A stretch of DNA of 64,000 bases, from assembly GCA_022818135.1 (NCBI GenBank), contig JAFMSR010000014.1:41403487-41467486 (forward strand), in the 5' to 3' direction. The DNA is from Saxidomus purpurata (Eukaryota > Mollusca > Bivalvia > Venerida > Veneridae). Position 1 is the stretch's first letter; each line of letters starts with the position of its first letter. The translations under genes and the position numbers were made by a program. The notes beneath the pieces were generated by a model. The model worked only from the letters and a program-made list of their open reading frames with translations, did no database searches and was not told where the DNA came from. Of this stretch, positions 37,291 to 47,960 are shown piece by piece.

Positions 37291-37670
37291 GAATTCATAC
37301 TTACAGTACAAAAGTAGCGGAACAAGCTCGAGTTTTGAATCGAGTTATTAAAAAAAAATACTTTACCACCAAACGAATGGCATAAGATGAGCATGTAACA
37401 CCGTATTTTTTTATAGTAAATGGAATTCAACATAAGTGGGCCATGACCATAACTTACGTTCGTAATCAAAACTTTGAAAGAAAGTGAAAAAAGGAACAGT
37501 TGCATTTCGCGTAAGCTATGCATTGAATGTACGTCATCTTTACGTGTTATAGACTAAGTGTACTAAATGCAGACATAAGCTAGAGAAGTCGCAGAATAGC
37601 ATATACATATGAATAACAATTGCTTCGTAATAGATTACAGATCCTAGCTAAAGTACGTATTTCTAATATA
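37291..37670. other. Intergenic/intronic DNA, nothing recognised
   Basis: No gene seen. Confidence 0.4.
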
Positions 37671-37902
37671 CACTTAACAGGTTTAGAAACGCAAAGATTT
37701 CCCCTGTTGAACATTTTTATTTGAATGACGCTATTGTTTTTATTTCTATTTAAGTCATTTTTTGCGATGAATTATTGAAACTTTTACAAGAATTCAATTT
37801 TATATTGTTTTTGTTGTGTATGAAATTTGAATAAATTTGAAACACGATAACATTGTTAAAATAAATATTTTGCCACTTTTGCGTTTCTAAACCTGTTAAG
37901 TG
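37671..37902 (+). mobile_element. TA-flanked (Tc1/mariner-type) MITE, copy 1
   Basis: Ends are CACTTAACAGGTTTAGAAAC and its inverse complement, flanked by TA on both sides (37669-37670, 37903-37904). The interior matches 47608-47806 on the opposite strand over almost its whole length, apart from a segment of about 30 bp missing from copy 2. TA target sites are typical of Tc1/mariner transposons. No transposase. Confidence 0.9.
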
Positions 37903-38179
37903 TACATTATCAGGTCAACCATTCAACTAAAGCCTAAACATATGCTTTAACTTATTTATATTCAGATGATACCAATTCATAACTCAATATTTTCTATGTA
38001 TAGCAACAAAAAAATGATTCCGCCGATGAAATGATAAAAAGTCCTGCGTATTTAACCATGAAACAAATTCATATGTGCCGTCGTAAGCCATGAAAGTTCC
38101 GCTGTAGAGTAATTGACTACGCAATATTGACATAAAACAGGAAAAAACAACTAAATAACTAAGATTTGTCGCTGCACAT
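37903..38179. other. Short unassigned stretch
   Basis: Nothing recognised. Confidence 0.35.
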
Positions 38180-38504: not shown

Positions 38505-38628
38505 CAGTAAACTGCGTTTATAACGAACTCCTTGGGACCATTTTTTTAATATCCATTTAATATTTTCTTACAAAGTGAAGATAGAAAAAAAACTCGGCCA
38601 GAGAATTGTCTTCCTCATATCCGGAGTT
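38505..38628 (+). mobile_element. pogo/Tigger-like element end
   Basis: CAGTAAACTGCGTTTATAAC followed by GAACTCCTTGGGACC, preceded by TA (38503-38504). This resembles the terminal inverted repeats of pogo/Tigger-type elements, whose interior often carries CGTTATA-type sub-repeats. The matching right end was not found, so the element is truncated or its right end is lost. Confidence 0.6.
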
Positions 38629-39117
38629 TCGCTTTATCCGGAATCGTTATATACGCAGTTGTATTATCCGAGGTCGTTATATCCGGAGTCGTTTTATCCG
38701 GAGTCGTTTTATACGGAGTCTTTATATACGGAGTCGTTATATCCGGAGTCTTTATATCCGGAATCTTTATATACGGAGTCGTTATATACGGAGTCGTTAT
38801 ATCCGGAGTCGTTATATCCGGAGTCGTTATATCCGGAGTCGTTATATCCGGAATCTTTATATACGGAGTCGTTATATCCGGAGTCGTTATATACGGAGTC
38901 TTTATATACGGAGTCGTTATATCCGGAATCTTTATATCCGGAGTCGTTATATCCGGAGTCGTTATATCCGGAGTCTTTATATACGGAGTCGTTATATCCG
39001 GAGTCGTTATATACGGAGTCTTTATATACGGAGTCGTTATATCCGGAGTCTTTATATACGGAGTCGTTATATCCGGAGTCGTTATATACGGAGTCGTTAT
39101 CTCCGGAGTCTTTATTA
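38629..39117 (+). repeat. 15-bp satellite array, left part
   Basis: About 32 units of GTTATATCCGGAGTC with TCC/TAC and GTT/TTT variants. All three forward frames and one reverse frame stay open only because the unit is 15 bp long, giving ESLYP, RSRYI and TTPDI repeats. The same array in the same orientation continues at 46077-46145, on the far side of the 7-kb element. Confidence 0.95.
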
Positions 39118-40390
39118 ATAGAGCAGTAAAGCTTCCAAAAGTGACTTCGTTAAGAAGTAACTGGGCCACAAAAATGAACAAAATGAGTCATATATCAAAA
39201 TGTTCCGGGGACTCTGAAGTTTATTGGACCTCCGGCATAAATTGCATATTTTTGGTGCGGGCCGAGAAATCCAAGATGGCGTCCAAGATGGCCGCCGTTT
39301 TTCGATTAAGGTTGCTTTTTTAAAGGTCCTACTATAAAATAATTATTTAAAAGGAAGCTGCAAAGAAAGCACACAAATACATTAGCCATATAAATGTGCA
39401 AAATAAATATGACATTTGGAGTTTCATACAAGGTCATTATCAAGGTCAAATTCAAGGTCAAAAAGTCAAATTGACCAAAAAATCACCATATTACCACATA
39501 ATTTCCTCAAATTATCAAAATATATAGGGTATAGCAGGTCATGTTTTATACTAACAATGGCATATATACTTGTGCTTTTACGCACCAACCATTTTGTGCA
39601 AATAAAATCGGTTGCCATGGAGATATATAATACGGCGTCCAAAATGGCGGCCCTTTTCAGTTGTAGCCTGTTCTATTCATAGTTCATGTAAACAAAAATA
39701 TGTTAAATATGCGCTGCAAGTGAAACACAAAAATACTTGCAGTAAAATTATGCAAATTGATATTTTAATTTTGAGTTTCATTCAAGGTCACAATCAAGGT
39801 CATATCAAAGGTCGAAAGGTCAAATAGACCAAATATTCAATATTTTACCACATTATTTCTTCAAATTATTAAAAAACATAGGATAAAGAAAGCCATATTT
39901 TGCATACTTAACTGCAAGTGTGTTTATGTTTATTTTTCGGCTCATATTTTATTTTCAGTTTCATTCAAGGTCACTATCAAGGTCATATTCAAGGTCAAAT
40001 TGACCAAATATTCACCATTTTACCACATTATTTCTTCAAATTATTAAAAAGATAGGATAAAGAAAGCCATATTTTGTATACTTATAGTGCAAGTGTTATA
40101 TGTTTATTTTGCAGCACATGTTTTATTTTGATTTTCATTCAAGGTCATATCATAGGTCAAAATGTCAAATTGACCGAATATTCACCATTTTACTACATTA
40201 TTTCTTCAAATCATTATGAAAACATCGGATAAAGAAAGCCATATTTTGCATAATTATGCTGCAAGTGTTTTTATGCTTATTTTGCAGAACATATTTTATT
40301 TTGAGTTTCATTCAAGGTTACTATCAATGTCATACCCAAGGTTAAAAGGTCAATTTGACCAAATATTCAATATTTTATCACATTATTTCT
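39118..40390 (+). repeat. Left terminal inverted repeat with internal tandem units
   Basis: Outer part 39118-39700 pairs with 45500-46076. The inner part has units of about 175-180 bp starting near 39775, 39958, 40135 and 40305, each with TTTCATTCAAGGTCA(C/T), GGTCAAATTGACC and ACCACATTATTTCTTCAAAT. Repeated words with possible regulatory meaning are TCAAGGTCA and AAGATGGC / AAAATGGCGGCC. Confidence 0.85.
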
Positions 40391-40429
40391 TCAAATTACA
40401 TGTAACACAATTAATCGAGTTGTTCTGGA

Positions 40430-41349
40430 GATGATATCTGAACAACACCTTGAGCAGAGATGCGTGGTGTCATGTCAGTAACGAGAGATAGTAGTGGTGT
40501 ACCAATAAAACTAATACATCTGTCTCGGGGCTACGTATCAGCAGTTTTTGAACCACGTCACCTGCAACATATTTTGTATGTAGCACAACTACAGCTTTTT
40601 AGCTTGTAAATACAGTCCAACCTCTCAACAACACCTCTGAGGAGCAAAAAAGCCTCTCCGCAAAGACAGATGTGTTATTTCGCAAAGCAGTTATATGTAT
40701 ATCTGAACAAATTAACCTCCCCAGAGCCACAACCTCTCCAGTCACCAAACAAAAAATGATATTCCCTTTGGTGTTGTTGTGGAGAGGTTGGACTGTAGGT
40801 CTGAAACATAGGAAACCAGCTCAACCAGACTACCACTTACAACAATAATCTGTTCATCTGAAAGAACATCAACTGAGCTTTGAGCAAGATAAATGGTGCA
40901 GAACTTAGCAAGTTCTTTCTTAAAGTTAGTGTTACCGATGCCTGCTTCCAGTCTGCTATTGGCAATATTTTTCCCGAATGATCTTCACTTTATTCCATTG
41001 ATATCTGTGATTTGGCACTTTGATCAAAATATATATCAAGTACCACATGTATTTGAAGGGAACTTTTACTTTTTAATAAGACATATTGCCAAAATGAACT
41101 GGCGATGTCCTTGTACACTATACGACACTGGTTCACTACTTGAAGCATTTGTATCATCGCCACACCATCATATATTACACAGTCAGCTTTCTTTATTGAA
41201 ATCATATTGCCACTATCTGTAATAAGACTAGGAGGTACTACGGCATAATCCATATCTCTAAAAGGGAACTTTTCTATAGGCAAGCAGATAATATATACAT
41301 CTCTACCCCATTTATTCAATTCAATTGGGATACAAGAAAAACTGTGATA
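40430..41349 (-). pseudogene. Decayed ORF of the long-TIR element, C-terminal part
   Basis: Minus-strand coding remains in three pieces. Piece 1 (41349 to 40990) is open after a TAG at 41352-41350 and contains FPFRDMDYAVVPPSLITDSG, DCVIYDGVAMIQML and VVLDIYFDQSAKSQ. After a frameshift near 40985, piece 2 (to about 40797) reads GNTNFKKELAKFCTIYLAQS. Beyond a nested MITE, piece 3 (about 40600-40470) reads LIRSPETDVLVLLVHHY. This series (an acidic DG motif, VxDxY, then an (E/D)TDVLVL motif) matches my recollection of a large family of uncharacterised proteins found in many copies in molluscs, cnidarians and other metazoans. The acidic spacing suggests a metal-dependent nuclease or PIN/FEN-like fold, but that is inference. 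Stops, frameshift and insertion make it a pseudogene. Confidence 0.7.
40613..40795. mobile_element. Nested TA-flanked MITE (pogo/Tigger-like)
   Basis: CAGTCCAACCTCTCAACAAC at the left and its near-perfect inverse complement (GTTGTGGAGAGGTTGGACTG) at the right, flanked by TA (40611-40612 and 40796-40797). The 183-bp size, CAGT start and TA site fit a pogo/Tigger-derived MITE. It interrupts the pseudogene: the family motifs resume in order on its far side. Confidence 0.92.
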
Positions 41350-44118
41350 CTATGTATCACAGTGGACCTAGAAACAAAGCTTTTATGTAAATATTTTGAA
41401 ATTTGAGATGCAAATAAACTTTACAGACTTTATAACAGAGACAGAATAAATTTATATTCTAGGTTCATGTAAAGCAAATACTTGACTACCTGGTTTGTGC
41501 ATTTACAGTTTAGTAACTCTTTCTCATCTCCAGTCTATCATTTATGATTTAAAAAGAAACAAAATCATATTCATGAAAATACTTTAAATAGTCTTTATGT
41601 TCTTTCCGTTTTTTTCATTGGATTGTATATACGAGCACTATTTTCATTCAGCGTTAATTAAAACAAAGTCAACGCAGCAATATTATAATATGTTCTACGC
41701 AATGTTCAATAAAGGTGATTCTCAGAATATACAATACTATTCCTGCTTCTATCCTCACAAAATCGTTTGCAGTCAAATTGTTTTAATCAAAACAACGCAT
41801 ATTTTTACGATTACTAAAAGTTTTGTTACCGACCAATTAGTTAACTTTGGCTACCTGTCAGTTTATTGCTGTAGACCAGTCTAATAACACGAAATGTAAA
41901 CCAGTCTGATAAAAAATTGAAAGTGCATCCCGACCAGTTAGTAAACTTTGGCAAGCTTTCACTTTATTACTCTAACATAACATGTCTGATTTGATTTTAC
42001 TGTCAGTAACTGTACAATGATACCACTCAAAAACAAATGAAGTGCGATTGTAAATTTTAAACTATAAACATCGAGTCAACTAATGAACCCACTTTACCCG
42101 ATACCGGAAGATACCGGCATGTTTGACCGATATCGGTTTTTATACTGGCCGAACATTAAAAACTTTTCACTCCTTATTAGACGTTACATAAGCTTACAAG
42201 ACGAATTTTGATGCAAGGCATCAAAGACGCCGCGCATGTTTTGAAGCATGGCTGGGAGATGGGCACTGGGGCAGGTTTCTATTATAAAATGTGCGTGGTT
42301 AACATCAGCGAACCCTTTTTTACTACATAAAATGATCATTACCTCTGTCACGGACCTATATACACATTATGTTAATTATGTTATTTGTTTTATTCATCCT
42401 TGTAATGATATATGCAAATAAAAAGATTTTAAATGATTTTCTAGTTTCTGTTTTTTATTTTCATTCACTCATGGGAATTTTCGTAACTGGAAATGCAGAT
42501 AAGTTGTTAAACTGTCAAGGAACTTGAACAAAAAATATCGCTAAAATTTATCGAACTATTTAAATACAAAAAAAGAAAAGTAATACTTTTTTCTAACACA
42601 GAATGATTTTGGGTTTTAATACCGTCTAAGGGAGGTAATCGTTACAACATAAAGTACACACTAAGTTACATCGAACTAATTTGCTTAAAACCTAACCTAT
42701 CATTCTAAAATTACACATATTCAACAAATACATTAATTTTTATCATTTAGAATAATAAAAAGTGTATTTAACATAAAAAACTATTGAATTAAGACTTGTT
42801 TCCGGTAATCTCATTTGTTTTTGGTTGTTTCCGGTAAAAAGTTGTTTTCGGTAATCAGTAATACCGGTCCGTGCCTCTGTGTATTTAGCTGTATATCCTT
42901 TTTGTTTATGAAACTGATTTATAAAAATAAAGTTTTTATTAGTAATTTGCATAATACTAAACCCTTATGTAACTTCCATATTGTTTGTCTATTGTGATAA
43001 TTAAATACCTCTTTTCTCACAACATTAATTATTTTCGGATGCTAATTTTACACTGGCTATTTTTAGATACCAAGGAACTGATACACAAAACTATTTATAA
43101 CCATGGCTCCTCCCACAAGTTCACTGAATCATAGGTCTGTTAATAGGAAGCAGAGGCAAAAATATAATTTATACCGGGTCTAAATATTGTGAAAAAGAAC
43201 TATCTGTAAAACAGATATACCTGCCCCTCCCTCCCTGTAGCTGGTAATGTGGATTTTTCTTTCTTTCTATTCCCGAAGCATTATACACTCCAGCAATATG
43301 GCGGAAAGAGACGAAATCCACATGATTAATTATGCTGTGACGTATACATTTTACAGAACTTCCATTGGCTGATTATTGTTTTTGTTTACAAATGATGGAA
43401 TGGAATTCCGTTAGGGCCCTACGTATTGCATAGTTGGGTGAACGGTTTTTCTTGACAGTTTCAATATTAAAGTGTAATATGTAGTAATTAAAATGGGTTT
43501 TCATTGATTTTTCACGTTGGCGCCATGTATTCTATTATCTGAGTGTTTTAAGATAGCAAAACATCTTCCGAATCTTTTTTTCTGAGCTTTGATGAATCGG
43601 GTCGTAAGGTCCGTAAACAAAGCTATAAAAAACCCGTGGTCTACGAGTTTGTGGAAAAGTTATTAAATACTCATTAAATGTGTCCAACGTTTTGAAATAA
43701 GGGAAGGAGACATATGTATTTTGTATTGTATTGTTTTTTAATGACTTAATACAATTTAATGATTCATAAAAGTCATTTTTCATACATAGAACATAGTTTA
43801 GATTTACAATAATAATGTTGGCTGCTCCCTATTCGATTATGCAACCCCATGGTCCAAAATTGAAACCTATTCAATACTGACGCCGCGATTCCTCTCGGCG
43901 TCAATAAAATAATTTGACGTTTTACATGGATAAAAGATAGAACTATTTTTTGACAATTTTAAAGCTACACAAGGAACAGTGGTTTAACCCATTCTTCATC
44001 GTAACTTCCTAGGCGATTTTCATAACAGTTTGTTCAAAGAACTATACACTACTTAACCTACATGTTACTTTTTCCAACCACATATTAAATATAGCGGGGC
44101 GCTGCTGCGGTCCGCAAT
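41350..44118. other. Unassigned interior of the long-TIR element
   Basis: About 2.7 kb separating the two parts of the pseudogene. Contains a small ACTGTGATACTATGTATCACAGT hairpin (41340-41362), a two-copy tandem repeat (41829-41990), a TTGATGCAAGGCATCAAAG hairpin word shared with 58150 (42209), a polyadenylation-like AATAAAAAG (42417), and a short TGACGCCG / CGGCGTCA hairpin (43880-43905). No intact ORF is recognised. Probably one or more nested insertions or introns. Confidence 0.45.
41829..41990 (+). repeat. About 103-bp tandem duplication
   Basis: Two diverged copies starting CCGACCA(A/G)TTAGT(T/A)AACTTTGG and including TTTATT(G/A)CT. Confidence 0.75.
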
Positions 44119-44165
44119 AATTTGATATATATTTTGATCAAAGTGCTAAATCACAGCCACAAATG
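44119..44165 (+). pseudogene. Inverted fragment of the long-TIR element ORF
   Basis: The plus strand here reads DIYFDQSAKSQPQMK then a stop, the same peptide (DIYFDQSAKSQ) as on the minus strand at about 41000-41040. At the DNA level it is an inverted duplicate of about 40 bp (GATATATATTTTGATCAAAG). It directly abuts the minus-strand N-terminal fragment, so an internal inversion or template switch has rearranged the gene. Confidence 0.7.
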
Positions 44166-44560
44166 AAATGAGGTGATGATCAGTCGGAATCAAACTCATT
44201 AAACTCATATATGACATGTTCTCTCAGATAATCATTCCACAATTGGAATGTTGGGAAAACCCAATGACCTTTCTCTCGGAATTCTGTAAGCAATGTAACA
44301 ACAGAAGTTTTCAGGTAAGAATGCACATAGGATAATTTTTCGCGACGCAATTTGAGAGAAGGCGACTACAGTATGTCATACTGCATCAATCATGAAAAAT
44401 GCTCTCAAGCTTTGGTCTAAATCCTTTCCACCCAATACTTGATTAACTGTGTTACTTTCAAACACAGAGTCTGAGAGCTATTCCTTCAGACCTGCATCGC
44501 CATTAAGGTAACCAATACGGCGAAAACAGACATCAGGAAATGTACCTCCCCCCATATATA
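44166..44560 (-). pseudogene. Decayed ORF of the long-TIR element, N-terminal part
   Basis: The minus strand reads, in order, VCFRRIGYLNGDAGLKE, a TAG stop, LSDSVFESNTVNQVLGGKDL, DQSLRAFFMIDAV, a TGA stop, then after a frameshift LLTEFREKGHWVFPTFQLWN and DYLREHVIYEFNEFDSD, then a stop. The 'GxxGL(K/R)(E/D)L...GxxYxRA(x)RxHxL' and 'FPTFxxWxxYL' pattern is what I remember from the N-terminal half of the same family. The expected middle of the protein is missing between this piece and 41.35 kb. Its upstream end merges into the right TIR. Not functional. Confidence 0.65.
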
Positions 44561-44639
44561 CTTTTATGTGTTTCTTTTGCGCCTTACGCTTCCATTGATA
44601 TTTTATACATGGACAAGGAAAATAGCCTGCTATAGCTGA

Positions 44640-46076
44640 ATAGGGCGGCCATTTTATATACCATCTTTCAAGTCTCCAGGGCAACCGGTTTTATTCGTGG
44701 GTAGGTAAAAGCGCACTTATATAGATGTCATTACTAGTATTAAACATAAATCTCTTTATCCTATGTTTTTTTAAAGAAATAATGTAATAAAATGCAGTTT
44801 GTTGGTTAATTTGACCTTTTGGGGTTTGGTACGTGGCATTCCCTGTTTGATATTATTTTTGTTTTTTTGTTTGAATATTACATTGATAGTGATCTTGAGA
44901 GAAACTCAAAATATAGTATTTCTTTCGCATATTCATACTGCAAATGCTTCTTTTTGAGGTAATATTAAACAATTGTTTTATACATGAACTATGAAAAGGA
45001 CCTGCTATATATAGTTGAAAAGGACGGCCATTTTGGATACCATCTTATATATCTCCATGGCAACCGATTTTATTATATTATTTCTTTTGCATTATTCATA
45101 ATGCAAATGGTTTCTGTGTTTCTTTTGTAACCCAGGTCTTGACAATTGTTTTCATATATTAACTACGAAAAAAGAACATAGTTACTATAGCTTAAAAGTG
45201 TGGCCATTTTGGACGCCATATTATTATATCTCCATGGCAACCGATTTTATTTGCACAAAATGGTTGGTACGTAAAAGCACATGTATATATGTTATTATTA
45301 GTATCAAAAATTACTTGCTATATCCTATATATTTTGATAATTTGAGAACCTAATGTAGTAATATGGTGATTTTTTGTCAATTTGACCTTTTGACCTTTAA
45401 TATGACCTATATAATGACCTTAAGCCAAACTCAAAATATCATATTTCTTTTGCATATTCATACTGCAAATAGTCTTTGTGCTTCTTTTGCAGATCATATT
45501 TAACAATTGTTTTTATACATGAACTATGAAACGAACAGGCTACAGCTGAGAAGGGCCGCCATTTTGGACGCCGTATTATATATCTCCATGGCAACCAATT
45601 TTATTTGCACGAAATGGTTGTTGCGCAAAAGCACACGTATATATGTCATTGTTAGCATAAAACATGACCTGCTATACCCTATATATTTTGATAATGTGAG
45701 GAAATTATGTGGTAATATGGTGATTTTTTGGTCAACTTAACCTTTTGACCTTGAATTTGACCTTGATAATGACCTTGTATGGAACTCCAAATATCATATT
45801 TATTTTGCACATTTATATTGCAAATGTATTTGTGTGCTTCTTTTGCAGCTTCCTTTTAAGTAATTATTTTATAGTCGGACCTTTAAAAAAGCAACCTAAA
45901 TCGAAAAACGGCGGCCATCTTGGACGCCATCTTGAATTTCTCGGCCCGCACCAAAAATTTGCATTTTATGCCGGTGGTCCGGTAAACTTCAGAGTCTCCC
46001 AAACATTTTGATAGATGACTCATTTTGTTCATTTTTGTGGCCCAGTGATATCCTGAATATGGTGTTTTGCTGCTCT
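44640..46076 (-). repeat. Right terminal inverted repeat with internal tandem units
   Basis: Inverse complement of the left TIR. Four or so units begin with (G)GCCATTTTGGA(C/T)(A/G)CCAT followed by ATCTCCATGGCAACC and a TTTTATTTGCA segment (near 44643, 45025, 45195, 45553), and AAGGTCA appears as TGACCTT on this strand. A 41-bp foreign piece lies at 44829-44869. Confidence 0.82.
44829..44869 (+). repeat. 41-bp fragment of the 1.1-1.4 kb repeat
   Basis: GTACGTGGCATTCCCTGTTT and the following GATATTATTTTTG stretch match 1371-1411 with one mismatch. It lies within the right TIR and coincides with the 3' end of the repeat at 1085-1412, as a heavily 5'-truncated insertion would. Confidence 0.75.
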
Positions 46077-46145
46077 ACTATATATCCGGAGTCGTTATCT
46101 CCGGAGTCTTTATATACGGAGTCTTTATAACCGGAATCTTTATAT
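46077..46145 (+). repeat. 15-bp satellite array, right part
   Basis: Four to five units of the array at 38629-39117 (TATCCGGAGTCGTTA and variants), in the same orientation. The array was therefore a single block before the 7-kb element entered it. Confidence 0.9.
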
Positions 46146-46149
46146 CATA

Positions 46150-46700: not shown

Positions 46701-47607
46701 CTTTGATTCTTGATTTAATTTGATCTGTGTCTTGAGGGAACCAAAAAAAAACTAATTTTTCCTCGCAATGCTGTCGTAAATAGTCAATAAAATATCAGAA
46801 AAATCAGTAGACATCAGTAGCAGCCATATTTGATTGCTAGGTAGGGCTCGTGTGCATTGCTTTCCATTACAGAGATTGCGGTAATGAAAGCTGAAATTAA
46901 TTTTTTTTCTACTATCTTTTTTCTTATTATACACCATTTGAGTTTTCGATATATGTTTGCTAAGTATAAATGCGATTATTTATTTTTCTATTCTTCAGTG
47001 ATTGTCGTTTCAATGAGTAAATGGGGAATGCAATTATTTTTCCTTTTCTATAATATTCAAGGCCAAGTTTGAACTAAGATGTTGTAAATATTTTGTTTGA
47101 AAATCTGTAAATGTTACCTTCTTAACATAAATAATTTATAATTATATTTTATTATCATATATTTTGCTAGCACAAATACGATATTGACGCACCTAATAGA
47201 TGCGTCAATATACATTGTACATATACTGGCGCACCCTGTTGAAATTTATTGCCAAGGTCGAAATCTCAATAAAATTTTGTTACTATTTATCTATAGTAGA
47301 ATGTGCAATAAACAAGCTTGATTCTGAATCTAATTTTTCGGAAACAGAAATTTCAAATAGGTTCAAGGAATATATCTATAGTCAACACTCAGACAATTCA
47401 TTATGAACGACATAGACAAATCTATAAGTAAAAGAGATGAAACTGGCTTTTTATTATTACCATGGACTATTTAAACCGTACAAAATGATTGGTTAACGAT
47501 ATATTGTTCGTATGAAACGTTGTTCACCTTCTTTGTTATGACTAGACGCAATGAATCTCAATACACGCTACTAACTGTGAACCAACTGTGAAATAAGCAG
47601 TTTATTA
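46701..47607. other. Intergenic/intronic DNA with one stem-loop
   Basis: ATTGACGCACCTAATAGATGCGTCAAT at 47183-47209 forms a 9-bp stem. The 91-bp upstream stretch and short frames show no gene. Confidence 0.45.
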
Positions 47608-47806
47608 CACTCAACCGGTTTTTAAAACGCAAAAGTGGCAAAATATTTATTGTAACAGTGTTATCGTGTTTCAAATTTATTCAAATTTCATAGACAACAA
47701 AAACAATATAAAATTGAATTCTTGTAAAATAATTCATCGCAAAAAATGACATTCAAATAAAAATGTTCAACAGGGGAAATCTTTGCGTTTCTAAATCGGT
47801 TAAGCG
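47608..47806 (-). mobile_element. TA-flanked (Tc1/mariner-type) MITE, copy 2
   Basis: Reverse-complement match to 37671-37902, with ends CACTCAACCGGTTTTTAAAA and GCGTTTCTAAATCGGTTAAG, flanked by TA (47606-47607, 47807-47808). Shorter than copy 1 by about 30 bp in the interior. The 60-codon minus frame at 47688-47870 overlaps it by chance. Confidence 0.9.
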
Positions 47807-47960
47807 TATTTATGCTATTGGCTTCATTTAAGAAAATGAAAAAGTGTGTTTTTAACAATGTTTTTGTCAAGTTGTATAAACTTAAAACACACGGAATACA
47901 AGAAAGTCGAGAACAATTTCTTATAAATGCATTTTGAATATTACAGAATAATAATTTCTG

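Follow-up and report, generated by a model that had tools for sequence, protein, structure and literature searches.

The finding of long terminal inverted repeats (TIRs) around the remains of a gene raises the questions of whether that gene encodes the protein that moves the element or is merely carried by it, and of which group of transposons the element belongs to. Such an element is present in the window analysed here, a stretch of 64,000 nucleotides from the bivalve Saxidomus purpurata (contig JAFMSR010000014.1). An earlier interpretation, made from the letters of the DNA and hereafter called the sequence-only reading, had considered it an undescribed long-TIR DNA transposon with a decayed gene of an uncharacterised metazoan family, which might be its transposition protein or its cargo. 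With high confidence, the window element can be described as a copy of a cut-and-paste DNA transposon that has lost internal sequence and autonomy, and it probably comes from the AcademX lineage. The ends of its copies are fixed, their target duplication is 3 bp, recent copies have their gene damage in common, and intact relatives from two families, encoding a two-part protein, lie in TIR elements of the same genome that have duplications of equal length.

The extent of the element within the window was set at 39116-46080 by its TIRs and by the interruption of a 15-bp minisatellite, which stops at 39115 and restarts at 46081. The element had been recognized by the sequence-only reading at 39118-46076, and its true ends are 2 and 4 bases further out. 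The long repeats claimed there (at least 550 bp, looser beyond) were recovered as an ungapped pair of 572 nt with 92% identity (39160-39731 / 45475-46046) and as a gapped match of 751 nt with 88% identity (39160-39908 / 46046-45300), padded inward by looser tandem repeats to about 40398 on the left and about 44601 on the right. TAT flanks both sides of the element and the interrupted minisatellite unit is TTTATATCCGGAGTC; since the phase of the array is fixed, this target duplication can be read directly.

Copies of the window family were searched for in the 1.13-Gb assembly containing the window. A query with the outermost 245 bp of the left end yielded 41 matches (40 of 830 candidates scored), as did one with the right end (40 of 584 candidates scored), and the copy numbers are lower bounds because 40 of the 830 left-end candidates were scored. 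Thirty loci were excised, both window ends included: 22 left ends, beginning with TAATAGAGCAG in 21 cases and with CAATAGAGCAG in one; seven right ends, beginning with TAGTAGAGCAG in six cases and with TCGTAGAGCAG in one; and L051, for which the right end was the best match, yet which begins with TAATAGAGCAG. The 25-bp flanks of these copies differ by eye, save for two sets (L045/L046/L060 and L054/L058) that look like segmental duplications. A near-identical left flank was observed in three copies on one short contig (C20, at 629993, 873261 and 1356460), pointing to segmental duplication. The flanks share exactly 3 bp, and no more, in all 12 copies of which both ends were read (TAT, ATG, ATT, TTA, TAA, TTT, TTA, ATA, AAA, CTT, TTA and TAA). 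The CTT duplication belongs to a mini-element of 359 bp (C5:8959931-8960289) made of scarcely more than the two ends of the family. Left out of these counts were a copy on C2 (L030/L068) with a truncated left end and the copy at C17:4108302, of which a single end was read. The L030 copy of the window family sits inside a member of the intact family, and L029 represents the empty site. Among the closest copies, long stretches agree at 97-99%, and for the others the identity is about 89-97%. The divergence between TIRs (about 11-12%) was rejected as a measure of age, because separate copies agree up to 99% despite the differences between the two TIRs of one copy.

The gene remnant was compared by tblastn with the reference protein P0013, Mercenaria LOC123541526 of 1621 aa, and five pieces were matched on the minus strand, covering residues 718-790, 823-859, 1119-1285, 1272-1334 and 1342-1374 with E values of 6e-6 to 2e-22, which exclude chance similarity. 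The four peptides quoted by the sequence-only reading were all located in these broken minus-strand pieces. Residues 1-717, about 860-1118 (some 260 residues) and everything beyond 1374 are absent, so that the set of candidate catalytic acids is incomplete, the transposase part having lost its first and its last and the nuclease its last. Moreover, the first Asp of the SPDTD motif, conserved in 45 of 45 relatives in alignment A1, was replaced by Glu in the window copy (SPETDV). The piece matching residues 718-790 is interrupted by an in-frame TAG, which was also found in all 15 other loci aligned above the score threshold, corresponding to 10 distinct copies, two of which (on C4) have a common flank. 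Since this stop is common to the copies while their ends were still moving, the family spread after its gene had been broken, and an enzyme acting in trans was therefore required. The decayed gene described from the sequence alone was thus confirmed, and the element bearing it proved to be non-autonomous, one of many copies already broken. Open frames around the match do not exceed 227 aa in the best 20 loci of the gene search, and the few differences among decayed copies are almost all non-synonymous (totals of 8.5 vs 0.5 for piece B in four copies). The insertion of about 197 bp in the remnant, resembling a miniature inverted-repeat transposable element (MITE), was also found in copies L002 and L004 and is partly absent in L003/L063. 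Piece B alone retrieved three candidates from the protein database, none with E <= 1, and six stretches fitting a pattern from viral contigs, none of them a relative; Pfam gave a single match to the five remnant pieces, under its cut-off. In L009, L011, L012, L016 and L018, the stretch corresponding to P0013 residues ~1216-1272 occurs a second time in reverse orientation, possibly a trace of the event that produced the internal deletion.

The gene search also reached distant copies, of about 30-44% identity, with open reading frames (ORFs) of up to 1385 aa. L022 contains two ORFs of 600 and 1066 aa, stop to stop and exon-like in appearance, L021 a 1066-aa ORF and a separate N-terminal one, and L023 a single ORF of 1385 aa, stop to stop. 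The sequence-only reading had suggested that the flanks of intact relatives be inspected for TIRs and a fixed target duplication, and both were found in two families. One element is represented by L021 (8,425 bp), L025 and L027, with TIRs of at least 210 bp at 99% identity in the three copies, ends TGGTAGGGTGAC and duplications of exactly 3 bp in three of three pairs (TAA, TAA and TAT). The L023 element, of 10,057 bp, has TIRs with 77% identity over 456 nt, ends TAGTGKAGCAAA and a 3-bp duplication, ATA, in its one pair. The far ends of the L022, L024 and L029/L030 elements were looked for and not found, and an inverted-repeat scan of twelve 10-kb loci revealed no TIR pair, the L021 and L023 stretches stopping before the far ends. 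Taken with the 12 of 12 duplications in the window family, the four of four pairs in these intact families bear out the proposal that a long-TIR DNA transposon encodes this family as its protein, and neither TIR-less single-copy host genes nor an unrelated transposase within the TIRs were seen in the copies examined. As regards selection, the ratio of non-synonymous to synonymous substitution rates (dN/dS) between L021 and L026 was 0.27 over 744 codons, and 0.20 in the transposase part. Between L021 and L025 it was 0.58 on six changes, too little difference to tell. For L023/L024, dN was 0.24 with dS saturated, and the nuclease part gave a dN of 0.25 vs a dS of 2.7.

The intact protein joins in one chain a Cys-rich N-terminus, a DDE-like part, which some homologs show as DUF6589, and a FEN/XPG-like nuclease. 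The database search with an L022 ORF retrieved 82 homologs, and the named ones include proteins from Ruditapes, the nearest at 55%, Mercenaria, Dreissena, Mya, Anneissia, Porites, Actinostola and Eretmocerus, to which a second protein search added the sponge Halichondria. They thus span molluscs, cnidarians, a crinoid, a sponge and a wasp; the named ones of the first search are labelled 'uncharacterized', 'hypothetical' or 'unnamed'. The middle part is a candidate DDE-like transposase: in alignment A2 (42 rows) the Asp pair DNxD occurs in 24 of the 24 rows extending that far (the other 18 are gapped), the Asp of FD in 41 of 41 and the Glu of LEVT in 42 of 42, and a long insert separates the second acid of this D, D, E series from the third. 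Of 12 homologs, mostly picked for a listed precomputed match, 10 were matched in this part by PF20231 (DUF6589), a family of unknown function (P0059, P0070, P0074, P0077, P0085, P0091, P0094, P0096, P0098 and P0107), with E values of 1.2e-12 to 7.6e-16 in six and scores under the curated cut-off in P0059 and P0085; it was unmatched in P0052, P0066 and the four own-genome ORFs (L021, two of L022, and L023). A CXC (TCR) domain was found at the C-terminal end of P0085 and P0107, and NCBIfam gave two matches to four proteins, far under the cut-offs.

The C-terminal half appears FEN/XPG-like from its conserved motifs. The acids of FDG, VFD, EEAD, SPDTD and GCD are nearly invariant among the 45 rows of A1 (Asp in 45, Asp in 44, Glu in 40 with Asp in 5, Asp in 44, and then Asp in 45, 45 and 45), and 92 of the 108 proteins from the two homolog searches match the nuclease profile. 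The intact relatives present the FEN/XPG active-site acids in order with GCD/GSD-G-x-G; the window copy has one of them changed from Asp to Glu and lacks the last. The profile A4, built after A1, A2 and A3 with more divergent rows, had EXO1 as its best solved structure (E 2.2e-4), and 17 of its 18 hits were nucleases of this kind (five EXO1, 11 FEN1 and one 5'-3' exonuclease). EXO1 also ranked first with A1, A2 and A3, and 18 of the 20 hits of A3 were EXO1 or FEN1. The nuclease hinted at by the acidic motifs in the sequence-only reading was in this way substantiated. The likeness to FEN1/EXO1 comprises the same order of acidic motifs and the signature GCD-x-x-S-x-x-G-x-G; the proteins differ in the fusion to a transposase-like part and in about 30 extra residues between the second and third motifs, counted on FEN1 residue numbering.

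AcademX elements encode a nuclease of the XPG type, and the AcademH lineage was reportedly described by Kojima in 2020. One paper assigns AcademX duplications of 3 or 4 bp and AcademH duplications of 9 or 10 bp, and ties this to the encoded nuclease and helicase, respectively (PMC10045372). In a mollusc survey, only TcMar and hAT rank ahead of Academ among the DDE/D-related elements found, and Academ is numerous in bivalves and apparently restricted to them, with 100 curated elements of 5,565 bp mean length (PMC10294476); copy L063 measures 5,182 bp. The elements described here resemble AcademX in being TIR elements with a 3-bp duplication and in coding for a nuclease; they also code for a candidate DDE-like transposase part. 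AcademH, assigned to the same superfamily, differs in its helicase and longer duplications. A possible difference from AcademX is the union of nuclease and transposase-like part in a single polypeptide, which is observed here and is not known to hold for AcademX generally. A literature search found no publication combining Academ, XPG, transposon and terminal inverted repeats. PIF/Harbinger elements produce 3-bp duplications, prefer TWA targets and encode a recognised Harbinger DDE domain; this group does not fit, as the duplications include ATG, ATT, TTT, AAA, ATA and CTT and no Pfam DDE family was found in the four intact ORFs. EnSpm/CACTA elements, which end in CACTA/CACTG, likewise do not fit, the ends here being TARTAGAGCAG, TGGTAGGGTGAC and TAGTGKAGCAAA.

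Several results weigh against this placement and against the domain assignments. The AcademX name was given from described features and not from an alignment with Academ reference sequences, and the 64 gene-search matches included no intact member of the family to which the window element belongs. Pfam names neither a known transposase in the four intact own-genome ORFs nor XPG in these or in 10 rows of A3. Only four A4 hits, all EXO1, fall below 0.001, FEN1 lying at 0.32-0.49. The profile comparison with FEN nucleases suggested by the sequence-only reading succeeded for A4 against EXO1, whereas the earlier profiles were non-significant (best E 0.087 for A1, 0.03 for A2 and 0.0097 for the nuclease-only A3) and hhalign to human FEN1 was weak, with probabilities of 26% and 7.5% over the last motif only. 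The helicase that marks AcademH was not among the precomputed domains of the proteins from both homolog searches (27 proteins with E <= 0.01 and 7992 candidates scored in the helicase-relative search). In addition, the nuclease part covered in L021/L026 has a dN/dS of 0.62 (5 synonymous and 11 non-synonymous changes); by this value and those of L023/L024, long-term constraint on the nuclease is clear, whereas constraint in the short term is not.

The same reliance on features in place of sequence comparison, together with the lack of a Pfam transposase in the four own-genome ORFs, the uncharacterized homologs and the unknown function of DUF6589, leaves some room for a separate, undescribed superfamily combining a DUF6589-type transposase with a FEN-like nuclease, its likeness to AcademX being limited to duplication length and enzyme. 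This is rather improbable, as the duplication length, the presence of a nuclease and the abundance in bivalves agree with what is reported for AcademX and Academ (PMC10045372, PMC10294476), and on these grounds the undescribed superfamily of the sequence-only reading is probably wrong. The bolder proposal of a protein family apart from Academ, in which the flap nuclease would be a fixed and selected part of the transposition enzyme and would set the 3-bp duplication, is doubtful to the same degree.

That the two-part protein was captured as cargo by a TIR element moved by an unrelated transposase would agree with window remnants devoid of several candidate catalytic acids and with ends that are mobile without an intact gene. 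It is very unlikely: the window, L021 and L023 families differ in their ends, yet all carry the gene and 3-bp duplications; the ORFs of at least 250 aa in L021-L024 all belong to the two-part protein, barring artefacts of masked stretches and within loci that cover part of each element; and Pfam found no other transposase in four of these ORFs. The common flanks of L045/L046/L060 and L054/L058 indicate that segmental duplication added a few copies, but a host gene duplicated along with its flanks, with incidental inverted ends, is refuted to near certainty by single-base ends amid otherwise different flanks, by the 12 of 12 duplications of 3 bp, and by insertions within a minisatellite and within another element with an empty relative (L030 vs L029). 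The AcademX-like transposon remains the preferred reading, in which the element most likely falls in an already described group and the main use of the finding is to give a name to 'uncharacterized' animal proteins. The finding connects a set of these with a working transposon design and supplies, for three families of one genome, the exact ends and the target duplications. Long-TIR copies are seen to have spread after gene breakage, and what a fused FEN-like nuclease does during transposition becomes testable.

For such an AcademX-like transposon, the DDE-like part would bind the long TIRs, cut at the TAATAGAGCAG/TAGTAGAGCAG ends and join these to the target at positions staggered by 3 nt, the gaps being filled by repair. 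The FEN/XPG-like half may trim 5' flaps or overhangs of the donor or target, and the Cys-rich parts may bind zinc or DNA; these roles are predicted from the protein sequences. Because candidate catalytic acids of both transposase and nuclease are missing, the window copy would have been mobilised in trans; the intact transposase would have been supplied by a related element, or by one that has been lost or is missing from the assembly. Of this scheme, the fixed ends, the 3-bp duplication and the in-trans mobilisation can be read from the sequence. The coordinates of the features are collected in Table 1.

Table 1. Features of the transposon copy and its insertion site in the window
Feature	Position	Strand	Basis
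15-bp minisatellite, insertion target	38617..39115, resumes 46081-46146		tandem-repeat scan
Left target duplication copy, TAT	39113..39115		final minisatellite bases; 15-bp array phase and flank match
Left TIR, end TAATAGAGCAG	39116..39908	+	88% to right TIR over 751 nt
174-bp tandem repeats, inward extension of left TIR	39794..40398	+	tandem-repeat scan
Remnant with nuclease motif LIRSPETDVLVLLVHHY	40491..40589	-	P0013 1342-1374; tblastn 54.5% identity, 33 residues
MITE-like insertion, ~197 bp, inverted ends (by eye), in gene remnant	40590..40786	-	gap between P0013 1334 and 1342
Remnant, first part of nuclease domain (DCVIYDGVAMIQML, VVLDIYFDQSAKSQ)	40787..41307	-	P0013 1119-1334; two overlapping tblastn matches, E 2e-22 and 8.5e-10
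Private 1.7-kb insertion	42198..43903		lacking in compared copies; L063 empty site AAGCTTA^TAAAATAA
Remnant FREKGHWVFPTFQLWNDYL, transposase-like part	44225..44335	-	P0013 823-859
Remnant GGGTFPDVCFRRIG...LGGKDLDQSLRAFFMID with in-frame TAG	44379..44594	-	P0013 718-790
354-bp tandem repeats within right TIR	45203..45963		tandem-repeat scan
Right TIR, end TAGTAGAGCAG	45300..46080	-	TIR match and genome end searches
Right target duplication copy, TAT	46081..46083		array phase and flank match

The private 1.7-kb insertion lies between A and T, without a clear target duplication, and is perhaps Helitron-like; its ends depart from the usual Helitron rule. The element also contains a 66-nt inverted repeat (40974-41039 / 44122-44187). 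A 45-bp unit at 44825-44869 recurs with 96-98% identity in unrelated places (1367-1411 and L029:5990-6034), and 44829-44868 is absent from the right-end copies L054, L057 and L059. Finally, the minisatellite and the transposon are bracketed by two inverted copies of a short element (37664-37909 / 47606-47809, 81% over 238 nt), the first of which has its own 32-bp inverted ends.

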